From assembly GCA_937139405.1 (NCBI GenBank), contig CAKZPV010000034.1, positions 62,001-126,000 on the forward strand: 64,000 bases of DNA, in the 5' to 3' direction. Within the stretch, counting starts at the first letter, position 1; each line of letters begins with the position of its first letter. A program made the position numbers and the translations under genes. Origin of the DNA: an uncultured Nitrospirota bacterium (GTDB lineage: Bacteria > Nitrospirota > Nitrospiria > Nitrospirales > UBA8639). Shown here in pieces: positions 44,123 through 56,031 of the stretch. The notes under the pieces are model-generated. The model ran no database searches, had not been told where the DNA came from, and saw only the letters and a list, made by a program, of their open reading frames with translations.

Positions 44123-44149
44123 CTTTCCAGAGCAGAATGCTTTGGAAAG
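44123..44149. other. Imperfect 11-bp hairpin in the divergent gap
   Basis: CTTTCCA-G-AGC, AGAAT loop, GCT-T-TGGAAAG pair with one G-T wobble. It lies in the 604-bp gap between the IPT/TIG gene (leftward) and the lipocalin gene (rightward), before the first dispersed element. No T-run follows, and the function is unknown. The rest of the gap outside the element at 44269-44458 shows nothing recognisable. Confidence 0.35.
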
Positions 44150-44268
44150 AACAAGGGAAATCAGCGACATATTTGCGAGACGCGGTTGCACACATCCCCT
44201 CTTCGCCTTTCTTTTCTAATCCTTCTCTGTCGTATCCTTATCATAGATTTCAATCGGTTTTCTGTGAT

Positions 44269-44458
44269 GCCGGGGTTCGTCCCGACGGCCGAGCTCCTTT
44301 TGTTTCGGCAAAAGGAACCAAAACCATTGACGCCCAGTCTGGCCAGATAGAGAAGGGTCAGACGTTCACTTTAGGAGCGGGGACCAACTCGCTACGCTCA
44401 CACAAGGCTCGCGTCACAATACGACCGTCCGCCCCAGTGGCCAGCCAGAAGGCGTCAT
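44269..44458 (+). repeat. Dispersed three-hairpin element, copy 1
   Basis: Begins with the GC hairpin GCCGGGG-TTCGT-CCCGAC, then the second hairpin (CTCCTTTTG / CAAAAGGA-A arms, loop TTTCGG), then ACCATTGACGCCCAGTCTGG. A third stem (GAGC / GCTC) encloses the conserved CAACTCGCTACGCTCACACA, followed by a tail with GTCCGCCCCAGTGGCCAGCC and GGCGTC. It lies in the divergent gap before the lipocalin operon. This is the most diverged complete copy. Confidence 0.8.
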
Positions 44459-44541
44459 ATAATTGCTCTATGTCAGAGGGGATGAGTTCTTAGGGAACAA
44501 AGGGCTCGACTCGGTCTAGCCTTAATTGAGACAATAAAAAG

Positions 44542-48085: not shown

Positions 48086-48193
48086 GTTGGAAGTGGGAGT
48101 GAAACGGTCCGGCATATGTTTTATCACCGGCCTACGCAGACTATTTGGTTTGGGACTGATGCCAATACGATTGGGCGCGCCACCCTACCCTAA
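48086..48193 (+). pseudogene. 3' remnant of a second vgb-like gene
   Basis: 35 codons and a stop, with no start. The translated text SGSETVRHMFYHRPTQTIWF and onward to GRATLP is identical at 30 of the last 33 residues to the end of the intact protein at 45157-46170. At the DNA level the last 30 codons differ from it by about 15 silent changes and only one amino-acid change, so this piece diverged while still under selection as a protein and was cut off later. It begins one base after the TPR stop codon and is followed after 8 bp by dispersed element copy 2. Confidence 0.85.
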
Positions 48194-48201
48194 CTGAAGT
48201 T

Positions 48202-48387
48202 GCCGGGTTTCGCCCCGGCAGGCGAGGCCCTTTTGTTTCGGCAAAAGGACCCAAAACCATTGACGCCCAGTCTGGCCAGATTAGGATGGGTCGGACGCCA
48301 GACAGAAGACGGGCCAACTCGCTCCGCTCAAACAAGCCCGCGAAACGACAAGAGCGTCCGACCCAAGAGCCAGCCAGCAGGCGTCGG
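48202..48387 (+). repeat. Dispersed three-hairpin element, copy 2
   Basis: GCCGGGTTTCGCCCCGGC hairpin, second hairpin with GGCCCTTTTG / CAAAAGGACC arms around TTTCGG, then CCATTGACGCCCAGTCTGG. A third stem (CGGGC / GCCCG) closes on CAACTCGCTCCGCTCAAACA, and the tail GAGCGTCCGACCCAAGAGCC ends GCAGGCGTCGG. Tandem orientation between the TPR-vgb remnant and the OLD-family gene. The remaining gap to 48545 is AT-rich, with TTGGA...TCCAA arms about 40 bp before the next ATG. Confidence 0.85.
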
Positions 48388-48545
48388 ATAATCTGTACTT
48401 TTTTCGAGGTCTTGGGTAGCATGGTCAGGAATATAAGCCAATAAGTAATGCCTGCATCATCAGAAAAAATTGCATTCTCTTTTCTAATTCTTATTGGAAT
48501 TGATTTTCATCCAATTGCACCCATCTCTAAGCCAACCCACCACAG

Positions 48546-50414
48546 ATGAAACTCGCTCGACTACGAATTAGGAACTTTCGATGCTACAAAAACGAAATCG
48601 CATTTGATTTCGATGACATGACTGCTTTCATTGGGAAAAATGACGTAGGAAAGTCAACAGTTACAGATGCACTAGATATTTTTTTAAATGACGGAACGCC
48701 AGACAAGAATGACGCAAACAAAAACGGTAATCCAAAGGACCTTACATTTATTTGCGAATTCACAGATCTACCTACGCGGGTAATTCTCGATGAAGATTTC
48801 CACACAAGTTTTCAAGCGGAATACCTTTTGAATGAACAAGACCATTTAGAAATCCACAAAACCTATAGTGGCCACATTGCTACTCCTAAATGTACCAACA
48901 TTGCAGCCTATGCAGTACATCCAACAGCAAATGGAACTGAAAACTTGTTACAACTTAAAAATTCAGACCTAAAAAGGCGCGCAAAAGATCTAAATGTCGA
49001 CCTTATTGGTGTCGATCAAAGAATCAATGCTCAGCTTCGCCAACGTATTCGCGAAACGATCGGTGAACTAAAACTGAAGGCGGCCTTGGTCCCTCTCAAT
49101 GAAGAAAATGCAAAGAAGACTTGGGATGGGATCAAAACTTATATTCCAGTATTAGCACTTTTCAAATCTGACCGGGCGAGCACGGACCAAGATGCAGAAG
49201 CGCAAGACCCTTTAAAAGTAGCAGTAAAAGAAGCAATTAAACAGAAAGAAGCCGAGCTAAAAAACATCGTCTCCCATGTTGAATCTGAAGTCAAAAAAAT
49301 TGCTCAAAAAACTTTGGAGAAATTAAATGAAATGGATCCGAGTCTGTCCCAGCAACTTAATCCTCAATTTACCACATCCAAATGGGAGTCTCTTTTTAAG
49401 GTAAGCATAACTGGCGACGAAGATATCCCCCTCAACAAGCGAGGAAGTGGAGTGAGGCGTCTGGTACTCCTGAATTTTTTCCGTGCAAAAGCAGAACAGC
49501 AAGGGAAAGAAAGGGACAACGCCCCAGTCCTATATGCGATTGAGGAACCAGAGACTAGTCAGCACCCCAATAATCAGCGAAGGTTACTTAGTGCTTTAAT
49601 AGAATTATCAGTAGAAAACCAAGTCCTTATTACAACTCACACACCTATGCTTGCAAGGTCCTTACCGAATACATGCCTCCGTTATATTCATGAGAAGTCA
49701 GACAAGACGCGAGAAGTAGTTAAAGGAGGCAATGATACAAACAAGTTAATGGCCCAATCATTAGGAATTCTTCCTGATAATTCCGTTAAACTTTTTGTTG
49801 GAGTTGAAGGTCCGAATGACATAACGTTTCTTAAACATATGGCGAAAATGTTTAGACTCGCTGGCACAGATGTCCTCGATTTAGAAAAAATGGAAATAAA
49901 TGGGGAACTTATTTTCTTTCCTTTAGGAGGTTCAACTTTGGCCTATTGGATTTCACGGTTAGAAAAATTGAACCGACCTGAGTTTCATCTTTTTGATCGG
50001 GATACTCAACCACCGGCTAATCCAAAATATAAGGCTGCGGCTGATGAAATCAATCAAAGAGAAAGATGTAAGGCCCTCCACACAGGAAAAAAGGAAATGG
50101 AGAATTATTTACATTTTAGTGCAATTAATACGGCCTTTGCTGAAAATAATATTCCCCTTCATCTTTCGGCCAACTTTTCAAGTTTTGAAGATTTACCAAT
50201 GGAAGTCGCCAAAGGGGTGCATATTGCTTCTGGAAGCCCTCAAGCATGGACGGAGTTAGATCAAGCAGAACAGAAGAAGAAAATTTCCAAGACGAAGAAA
50301 ACCCTTAACAACTCTGCGGCTTCATTCATGACAAAAGAGCGTTTGGACGAAATTGATCAGGATGGCGATATTACTGAATGGTTCAGAATGATGAAGGAAC
50401 TTGCTGATTCTTAG
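48546..50414 (+). CDS. OLD-family ATPase with TOPRIM nuclease domain
   Basis: 622 residues. The ABC/SMC-type ATPase begins ARLRIRNFRCYKNEIAFDFD; the Walker A is IGKNDVGKSTVTDAL (about 29-43), then a coiled-coil-like insert, signature region NKRGSGVRRLVLLNFF, Walker B VLYAIEEPETSQHPNNQR and H-loop VLITTHTPMLARSL (about residue 363). The C-terminal TOPRIM domain has VEGPNDITFLKHMAK (catalytic Glu, about 418) and HLFDRDTQPP (Asp-x-Asp, about 482). Members act as DNA nucleases in phage defence (OLD, GajA) or repair. There is no UvrD-like GajB partner or other defence gene next to it, so it is a single-gene type. Codons are more AT-rich than its neighbours, suggesting transfer. Confidence 0.88.
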   Translation: MKLARLRIRNFRCYKNEIAFDFDDMTAFIGKNDVGKSTVTDALDIFLNDGTPDKNDANKNGNPKDLTFICEFTDLPTRVILDEDFHTSFQAEYLLNEQDHLEIHKTYSGHIATPKCTNIAAYAVHPTANGTENLLQLKNSDLKRRAKDLNVDLIGVDQRINAQLRQRIRETIGELKLKAALVPLNEENAKKTWDGIKTYIPVLALFKSDRASTDQDAEAQDPLKVAVKEAIKQKEAELKNIVSHVESEVKKIAQKTLEKLNEMDPSLSQQLNPQFTTSKWESLFKVSITGDEDIPLNKRGSGVRRLVLLNFFRAKAEQQGKERDNAPVLYAIEEPETSQHPNNQRRLLSALIELSVENQVLITTHTPMLARSLPNTCLRYIHEKSDKTREVVKGGNDTNKLMAQSLGILPDNSVKLFVGVEGPNDITFLKHMAKMFRLAGTDVLDLEKMEINGELIFFPLGGSTLAYWISRLEKLNRPEFHLFDRDTQPPANPKYKAAADEINQRERCKALHTGKKEMENYLHFSAINTAFAENNIPLHLSANFSSFEDLPMEVAKGVHIASGSPQAWTELDQAEQKKKISKTKKTLNNSAASFMTKERLDEIDQDGDITEWFRMMKELADS

Positions 50415-50830: not shown

Positions 50831-51004
50831 AAACTTTTCCCATCTTGATTCTCCCTGTTATGAGTTTTGATAAATTCAGGACCGAATTCGGATATTTGAG
50901 GAAACCTGTTTGAGTACAACGGAATACCCTACGCTTCGACAATATTTTCTTCAACACTGACCGATGCCTCCCCCATAGGTTCCCCCTGGCCTGGTGGCAT
51001 GGCT

Positions 51005-51201
51005 GAGCAGTGGAACCGACACCGGAGAAAAGGTGGGCAGTGTTTGAGCGAAGCGAGTTTGCCCACCGCCGGTGTCGGTGAACCGCGCAAGGCACCCGAA
51101 GAGCTTGCCCCTGCGAAGGCAGGGGGTCATGTCACGGTCAAAATGGTTTTGGGTCCTTTTGCCGAAACAAAAGGACCTCGGCTGCCGGGCCGAAACCCGG
51201 C
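51005..51201 (-). repeat. Dispersed three-hairpin element, copy 3
   Basis: On the - strand: GCCGGGTTTCGGCCCGGC (51184-51201), second hairpin with GGTCCTTTTG / CAAAAGGACC arms around TTTCGG, then CCATTTTGACCGTGACATG. An inserted extra hairpin (CCCCTGC-CTTC-GCAGGGG) follows, and then a third stem GGTGGGCA / TGCCCACC around AACTCGCTTCGCTCAAACAC. The third stem is a perfect 8-bp pair with a different sequence from other copies. Located in the divergent gap between the YCII gene and the SulP gene. Confidence 0.85.
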
Positions 51202-51571
51202 ATTACGGAAAATGATACATAGCGCTTGTTCTATAATGGGGTCCCCCATGCCAAGGGATGTCTGACGCGTGACGGCATACTGTACATGATGTTCAAGCTT
51301 GGACAATGCACGGAGAACACGTGGAAATGATTACGAGGCTTCAATGAATTGCTTAAAATCATTACGGCCATTCCATGTCTTGATGGAATCGAACAAGTAC
51401 CCCCGATTCGGTCACCACGTGATCAATTTGCTCAAACACGACATTTGACGATAACTTAGTAGTCTTTAAGGATGCTCTTAACTTTTCACTTTTATTCGTT
51501 CACAATTAACCTACTGGGAGTATGACCAGTACGGATTCGTGTTAAAGCAGACGATTGAGGAAACCATAGCC
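51202..51571. other. Gap between element copy 3 and the SulP gene; possible decayed coding fragments
   Basis: No intact gene. On the - strand two short overlapping frames read protein-like text: one contains SNVVFEQIDHVVTESGVLVR (about 51380-51450), the other GYLFDSIKTWNGRNDFKQFI (about 51340-51400), each soon ended by stops and shifted relative to each other. They may be parts of a degraded gene, but I cannot name a family. No promoter could be assigned for the SulP gene. Confidence 0.25.
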
Positions 51572-53170: not shown

Positions 53171-53253
53171 TTCTACTATAGCCATTCTAAATAATTTCCA
53201 TTTACTTTAAAGCTCTACTCAGCAGAATGGAATCTGTTTCGTCCATGGACAAT

Positions 53254-53440
53254 GCCGGGTTTCGGCCCGGCAACCGAGGTCCTTTTGTTTCGGCAAAAGG
53301 ACCCAAAACCATTGACGCCCAGTTCGGGCAGATGGGATGGGACGGCCGCACAGAAGAGGAGCGGACCAACTCGCTACGCTCAAACACGGTCCGCCGAAGA
53401 CCAGGAGCGTCCGACCCAAGGGCCGAACAGCAGGCGTCGG
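53254..53440 (+). repeat. Dispersed three-hairpin element, copy 4
   Basis: The most regular copy: GCCGGGTTTCGGCCCGGC, then perfect 10-bp arms GGTCCTTTTG / CAAAAGGACC around TTTCGG, CCATTGACGCCCAGTTCGGG, a third stem GCGGACC / GGTCCGC enclosing AACTCGCTACGCTCAAACAC, and tail GAGCGTCCGACCCAAGGGCC ending GCAGGCGTCGG. Lies between the convergent SulP and HAMP-receptor genes. Short open frames on both strands here arise from the element and are not genes. Confidence 0.88.
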
Positions 53441-54820: not shown

Positions 54821-54961
54821 CTCGACTCCCGAAAAATACCTCACCCTGAAAACCCGCGAATCTAACTTTTCATCAACTCTTACGCTGTAGCGAGGATGAG
54901 GAATTTATCAAATTGTTAAGTTATTATCATAGCAAAACTTGAAGTCTGTCCTAAAGCATTG

Positions 54962-55106
54962 GGGGACCTTGTTTGAATGGAGCGAGTTGGTGCACCTTCC
55001 TACTTCCCGCGTCCGCTTAATCTGATGAGGCCGAATTGGACGTCAATGGTTTTAGGTCCTCTGGCCCAAACAAAAGGACCTCATCGTAAGGGGACGAGAC
55101 CCCGTG
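54962..55106 (-). repeat. Dispersed three-hairpin element, copy 5 (truncated)
   Basis: On the - strand the first hairpin is GGGG-TCTCGT-CCCC, the second GGTCCTTTTG / CCAGAGGACC around TTTGGG, then AAACCATTGACGTCCAAT, a long variable spacer, and ACCAACTCGCTCCATTCAAA with a weak closing stem (ACC / GGT). The tail present in copies 1, 2, 4 and 6 is missing. Divergent gap between the HAMP receptor and sixA. Confidence 0.75.
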
Positions 55107-55732: not shown

Positions 55733-55922
55733 CCGATGCCCCTGCTATCCGGCCCCAGGAATGGACGCTCTTATGAAACGGCGGGCCTTGTTTGAGCCAC
55801 GCGAGTTGGCCCGCGCTCATAGAATTCGCGTCCAACTCATGTAATGAGGCCGGATTGGGCATCAATGGTTTTGGGTCATTTTCCCGAAAGAAAAGGACCT
55901 CGGCCGCCGGGACGAAACCCGG
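55733..55922 (-). repeat. Dispersed three-hairpin element, copy 6
   Basis: On the - strand: CCGGGTTTCGTCCCGGC, then a second hairpin with GGTCCTTTTC / GAAAATGACC arms around TTTCGG. Here the pair next to the loop is C-G instead of G-C, a compensatory change. Then AAACCATTGATGCCCAATCC, a third stem GCGGGCC / GGCCCGC around AACTCGCGTGGCTCAAACAA, and the tail GAGCGTCCATTCCTGGGGCC running to 55733. Convergent gap between sixA and the ABC-2 permease. Confidence 0.83.
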
Positions 55923-56031
55923 AAAGTCATATTATTGAGAATCAGCTAGGAAATGGAAGAAGGGCTTGCAGGTAACTCACTCAACATGAGTGGCAAAAAA
56001 CGAAACACCGAGATCTTCAGGTTAGAGCCGG

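Follow-up and report, generated by a model that had tools for sequence, protein, structure and literature searches.

The window analysed here is a stretch of 64,000 nucleotides (64 kb) from the genome of an uncultured Nitrospirota bacterium. It contains six copies of a dispersed element of about 190 nt, and the intergenic spaces of this bacterium in general hold scattered copies of this hairpin-forming DNA unit: a covariance-model search recovered 59 of them from the whole assembly (4.46 Mb in 51 contigs). The focal element, copy 4, is an entire unit on the plus strand at positions 53253-53438 of the window (C34:115253-115438 on the contig; 198.8 bits and E 6.6e-52 with the R1 model). Copies 1 (44268-44456; 170.1 bits with the same model) and 2 (48201-48385; 191.9 bits) lie on the plus strand as well. 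On the minus strand we found copy 3 (50986-51202; 82.5 bits; sequence L027), a degenerate copy 5 (54936-55103; 67.2 bits) and copy 6 (55735-55924; 180.2 bits), in which the loop has diverged. Spurious ORFs run across element copies at 44137-44493 and 48141-48422 (with peptides like NSLRSHK and LFERSELA). The stretch between copies 2 (+) and 3 (-) encodes an AAA_15 ATPase of OLD-like type (48546-50414), possibly a defence gene.

The element is made up of two short hairpins (1 and 2), then a CAAAACC linker, then a long imperfect hairpin whose loop reads AACTCGCTnCGCTCARACA. In copy 4 (all positions on the plus strand), hairpin 1 reads TGCCGGG-TTTCGG-CCCGGCA (53253-53272; 95.1% of the cells paired over 27 aligned copies) and hairpin 2, the part with the strongest covariation, reads GGTCCTTTTG-TTTCGG-CAAAAGGACC (53278-53303). 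It is followed by the linker CAAAACCATT (53304-53313), and across phyla it is CAAA[A/G] that comes after hairpin 2. The long hairpin is closed at its base by GACGCC and GGCGTC (53314-53319 and 53433-53438; 96.2% of the cells paired). Further inward, the 5' arm of helix 5, GGGACGGCCGC (53339-53349), has its partner at 53407-53417, and the tip is formed by the apical hairpin GCGGACC-AACTCGCTnCGCTCAAACA-GGTCCGC (53361-53394), whose constant loop AACTCGCTACGCTCAAACA (53368-53386) is near-invariant in the 27 copies and recurs across bacterial phyla. The 3' arms together span 53407-53438 and comprise those of helix 5 (GCGTCCGACCC), helix 4 (CCGAAC) and the outer stem (GGCGTC). What had been described in a first-pass annotation as the third stem is the mere tip of this long hairpin, and two more helices lie between that tip and the outer stem.

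The sequence variants on which that annotation had built its case are all present. The third stem is GCGGACC/GGTCCGC in copy 4 (53361-53367 and 53388-53394), GGTGGGCA/TGCCCACC in copy 3 (minus strand, 51202-50986) and GCGGGCC/GGCCCGC in copy 6 (minus strand, 55924-55735), and the stem 2 pair that adjoins the TTTCGG loop, G-C in copies 1-4, is reversed to C-G in copy 6. The associated claim that these stems pair around a nearly constant loop is supported, and hairpin and loop are found together across bacterial phyla. In copy 6 the loop has diverged (AACTCGCGTGGCTCAAACA) and one of the stem 2 pairs is broken, so that this copy does not make a clean example. The copies of the genome come in two types: in type A the arms are related though diverged, and in type B (e.g. 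copy 3) hairpins 1 and 2 and the loop have been retained while the arms are wholly different. The genome has 28 occurrences of the exact loop and none of the reversed pattern.

Compensatory covariation in the stems is confirmed and exceeds what is expected by chance. In an alignment of 27 genomic copies with 46 proposed pairs, 89.4% of the cells pair and 25 of the 46 pairs show changes on both sides. None of 500 shuffles reached the observed percentage paired, the covariation score, or the number of pairs or of cells with two-sided changes (14 of 500 matched the further pair types), and at most 11 pairs with two-sided changes were left, versus 25, when the partner was slid by 1-3 columns. Because relatedness can mimic covariation, we built a tree-based null in which parsimony substitutions are reassigned along a FastTree tree (a home-made script that is R-scape-like, not R-scape itself). 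Under this null, significance (E<0.05 over 46) is retained by ten of the 46 pairs, and by two of these even when all column pairs are considered; five of the ten lie in stem 2, three in the outer stem, one in helix 5 (pair 97-171) and one in the apical stem (pair 120-149). Of the 13 column pairs that score highest, 10 belong to the structure, and two of the other three lie inside hairpin 2. The first-pass annotation had read such changes as a sign of selection on an RNA or a single-stranded DNA structure with a constant loop as the recognised part. The compensatory changes are real and the arms keep structure rather than sequence; the choice between RNA and DNA, which had been left open, now leans towards DNA, and recognition through the constant loop is plausible. 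The comparison with Rfam that had been proposed returned no family among 4227 covariance models, neither at the gathering threshold (window and 31 loci) nor at E<=10 (element).

Within the lineage, the element is dispersed, patchy in its distribution and differs in presence between species. The number of exact loops per genome is 28, 19 and 25 in the genus of the window, 21, 14, 20, 6, 1, 1 and four times zero in genus g2 of the same family, and 51, 0 and 0 in genus g5; there are none in all members listed of the sister family, and the reversed loop pattern has no match in any genome compared. Genome G081 has about 20 copies of the element; G065 and G125 have many more. When G065 is compared with G081, the element is present in one genome and missing from the other at no fewer than six orthologous intergenic gaps, one of them with a half-deleted remnant, and in the gaps without the element other palindromic repeats stand in its place. 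These substitute repeats (L453, L455 and L456; at ~273.5, 1118 and 1758.7 kb in G081) are GTCATCCCCGAC..GATCGGGGATCCAG, which is CGTC-like, GTAGGTCGGGTTAGCCGAAGGCGTAACCCGAC and CCCCCTCAATCCCCCTTATCAGGGGG; the GTAGGTCGGGTTAGCCGAAGGCGTAACCCGAC repeat has an AGCGnAGCG-like loop centre in common with the element. Among the matches listed, no counterpart of window copy 2 adjoins the orthologous TPR gene of two congeners. The six polymorphic gaps yielded no target-site duplication, clean empty site or clean insertion boundary, and in the lineage of the window the element has no bias with respect to replichore or replication strand. Where two elements lie within 600 bp of each other, head-to-head pairs outnumber tail-to-tail pairs by 9 to 1.

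To look beyond the lineage, 84,980 species genomes were searched for the exact loop AACTCGCTNCGCTCARACA, which yielded at least 118 stretches (not a census), and viral contigs added 87 more. In the resulting pan-bacterial set the constancy of the loop follows from the design of the search, but the arms are free of that bias. The matches listed include named isolates of Marinobacter, Variovorax, Stenotrophomonas, Haemophilus, Rodentibacter, Fusobacterium, Parabacteroides, Flavobacterium, Sphingobacterium, Clostridium, Cellulosilyticum and Selenomonas, and the loop stands on arms that pair with each other but are unrelated in sequence in Proteobacteria, Bacteroidota, Firmicutes, Fusobacteria, Patescibacteria and Desulfo- lineages. 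Among the matches listed, the flanking arms are complementary in 140 of 166 non-redundant loci, with a median anchored arm pairing score of 41.75 versus 12.5 when arms are swapped between loci, and the arm sequences are unrelated between taxa. A hairpin 2 (at least 9 bp and at the right distance) lies upstream in 55 of the 117 genome loci listed, versus downstream in 15. The upstream hairpin mostly runs directly into CAAAA or CAAAG, and its stems vary as well (CCTACTTTCTTTT/AAAAGAAAGTAGG, GTTACTTTT/AAAAGTAAC, CTTCATTTTT/AAAAACGAAG). Since distant taxa have the loop, the paired but unrelated arms and the hairpin 2-CAAA module in common, the element of the window is one member of a multi-phylum family, and the loop-sharing hairpins point to a widespread and apparently undescribed family of mobile DNA. 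The open literature (5.4 million papers), as queried by the loop, its complement, hairpin 2, related-loop strings and the concept, contained no description of it, although the closed literature may differ; the string matches that did turn up were short and in unrelated papers, and were dismissed. The 'skipping-rope' motif was considered as a candidate and dropped, as no description and no Rfam match were found.

Several related sequences surfaced alongside. A subfamily CTGCGG-[loop]-GTCCTCGCC is identical over 36-39 bp between distant taxa, i.e. in loci of Bacteroidota, Lachnospiraceae, Patescibacteria and relatives (e.g. L165, L179, L186, L192, L058). In viral contigs (L205, L213, L217, L222, L229, L231, L243, L245, L250 and others) the exact loop lies outside any hairpin and leads into CTGGCGCACTTCGTTTGCGG or AACCACTTGAAGCT, a separate and recurrent phage context. 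A related hairpin 1-2 module that does not have the AACTCGCT loop is found on Paraburkholderia replicons (L289-L296), with at least 38 copies on each replicon, and in the region examined two such modules are oriented towards each other at a distance of about 512 bp (e.g. L292:20024 and 20536). The module copy examined on these chromids occupies one site that is shared by four related replicons, and for that reason gave no empty site. When the window element was compared with plasmid and phage DNA, there was no match or only short ones to hairpin 2, and no DNA similar to the Haemophilus element was found in E. coli.

Whether the structure is selected as DNA or as RNA can be judged from the pairs themselves and from the surrounding genes, and on balance this evidence leans towards DNA. 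Covarying stems are equally what one would see if the selected product were a structured non-coding RNA (a small RNA, 3' UTR element or attenuator) of which the copies serve a regulatory role, an explanation that we consider unlikely. In other phyla, 46 of 67 upstream genes are directed into the element, a possible hint of a function at the ends of transcripts, but in the lineage of the window the orientation is random (the upstream gene faces the element in 16 of 30 and in 13 of 26 cases) and the copies occupy divergent, convergent and tandem gaps alike. Similarly, A.C exceeds G.T among the deduplicated isolated mismatches of the pan-bacterial set (47 versus 16; p=1e-4), as is expected from G.U pairs in a minus-strand RNA, and the window genome's own copies lack this asymmetry (11 versus 9). 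The patchiness and turnover of the element and the missing Rfam match speak against an RNA too. In the pan-bacterial loci listed, the pairs no more than 8 bp from the loop comprise 982 of Watson-Crick type versus 10 G.T and 12 A.C, i.e. very few wobbles on either strand; G.U pairs are normally commoner than this in selected RNA helices, and pairing that is almost purely Watson-Crick therefore fits DNA better than RNA. If only a single strand folds, the minus strand (TGTYTGAGCGnAGCGAGTT) is the better fit, on weak evidence from the pan-bacterial set. Near-perfect pairing on both strands is also the expected copying product of template-switch repair or gene conversion between the arms of a palindrome, long palindromes being known substrates of template switching, in which case complementarity would be maintained by a mutational process and not by selection on structure. 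As a full account this is improbable: at some of the proposed pairs many copies retain a mismatch (columns 122-147, for instance, are A.C in 13 of 27), and the constant loop, the cross-phylum hairpin 2-CAAA module and the dispersal are left unexplained. Such repair could nevertheless be a partial source of the covariation in the arms, in place of selection.

The other alternatives concern the way in which the element spreads. Its palindromic, intergenic and high-copy nature and its head-to-head pairs would suit a REP/REPIN element moved by a REP-associated tyrosine transposase (RAYT), and the genome of the window encodes three Y1_Tnp/RAYT-like proteins (G000 C4:423939, C47:182109 and C31:222539). 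The flanks covered for these three genes, up to about 1.5 kb, are free of the element, however, and it is the loop that is constant, not a GTAG-tagged hairpin foot. Moreover, G065 (21 exact loops) and G081 (14; a single-contig genome) have no PF01797 gene, whereas G133 and G137 have five and three Y1_Tnp genes and no loop. With two element-rich genomes lacking any such transposase and two element-free relatives having several, a RAYT is dispensable. Membership of the REP/RAYT system was rejected given the missing foot tag and the absence of Y1 from two element-rich genomes, and we regard movement by a RAYT as highly improbable. Among the genes that flank the loop in other phyla no protein family is enriched as a candidate mover. 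A recombination site of a putative cassette system, at which elements part small accessory genes (toxin-antitoxin, defence) in the manner of integron attC sites, is suggested by five polarised clusters in three congeneric genomes (one on contig C32 of the genome of the window, two each in G191 and G251). In these, several minus copies lie to the left and several plus copies to the right of a core of 7-16 kb. In G251 the two cores are located on C1 (3439.9-3454.6 and 3634.3-3641.5 kb), and in G191 on C3 (26.5-42.7 and 240.2-249.7 kb). The one core that was read (G000:C32:24500-34300; L470) is a Mza-like defence locus between oppositely oriented element clusters, with genes for MzaB, MzaC, MzaD and MzaE (GHKL ATPase, Z1 helicase, MzaD, AIPR/MzaE), a Dcm cytosine methyltransferase and Vsr, and genes for ParE, PIN and nucleotidyltransferase proteins are interleaved with element copies. 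Yet this core represents a single cluster, and the cluster flanks are partly segmental, inverted duplicates, which may explain part of the polarity. In addition, most copies stand singly amid ordinary chromosomal genes, and no attC core motifs (RYYYAAC / GTTRRRY) were noted by eye, so that we think a cassette system very unlikely.

The reading that we prefer, with a probability of about 0.6, is that the element is a non-autonomous, intergenic and palindromic piece of mobile DNA, a member of a very widespread family that is composed of a conserved short hairpin, CAAA[A/G], and a variable-arm hairpin with a constant loop. In its way of working it is probably best seen as REP/MITE-like. When the DNA of such an element is single-stranded or extruded, the hairpin would fold, and a putative enzyme acting in trans would bind it through the constant loop and copy or move it; with the enzyme bound to the loop, the arms may drift as long as pairing persists. 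The moving unit may often be an inverted dimer, as in REPINs, which is what the head-to-head pairs suggest. A more specific proposal, in which a pan-bacterial mobile hairpin is recognised by its invariant 19-nt loop, tolerates any complementary sequence in its arms, is moved by an enzyme outside the known HUH/RAYT proteins and forms outward-polarised arrays around defence loci, is put forward tentatively, as in its entirety it is rather doubtful.

The usual definition of a palindromic repeat rests on its stem or foot together with a RAYT partner. The design of the present element, with a constant loop and a free stem, in many phyla and without a known mover or Rfam family, raises, if confirmed, a testable question: what protein recognises a hairpin loop of the sequence TGTYTGAGCGnAGCGAGTT, or of its complement? 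Genus g2, which has element-rich (G065, G081, G202, G187) and element-free (G173, G179, G199, G243) sister species within the family of the window genome, offers a natural system in which to find that protein. In practical terms, the elements enter genome annotation as spurious ORFs, and they mark polarised clusters, one of which surrounds a defence locus.

Among the known systems, GTAG REPs and REPINs are likewise short, palindromic, intergenic DNA with many copies, frequent head-to-head pairs and variable stems. They are defined by a GTAG (or GTGG) tetranucleotide 0-2 nt 5' of the hairpin foot (PMC6006769), a tag of which the 27-copy consensus contains neither form; the element differs further in its 19-nt constant apical loop, its three-hairpin unit of ~190 nt and its presence in Y1-free genomes. 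According to Quentin et al. (2018, PMC6006769), RAYT subclasses 2.1 and 2.3 have no identifiable flanking REPs and subclass 2.6 is flanked by atypical structures. These would be the natural candidates for an orphan or atypical Y1 partner, yet Y1 genes anti-correlate with the element in the family of the window. CGTC repeats, as described by Di Nocera et al. (2013, PMC3733652), are multi-phylum palindromes too, mostly head-to-head dimers, and were reported there without an associated transposase gene, but with stems of 8-9 bp, loops of 4-5 nt, a CGTC tag and a CCA tail they differ from the element in stem, loop and tail. Membership was rejected on the basis of structure and consensus, and CGTC-like repeats adjoin the element as separate repeats. 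With integron attC sites it shares imperfect palindromes, a conserved folding of variable sequence and arrays with small accessory genes; attC sites, however, are conserved at their ends and the element in its loop, and most of its copies lie outside arrays. Like MITEs, finally, the element is non-autonomous, intergenic, palindromic and dispersed, but its conserved part is internal; neither terminal inverted repeats nor a target-site duplication were seen, with no clean empty site among the six polymorphic gaps.
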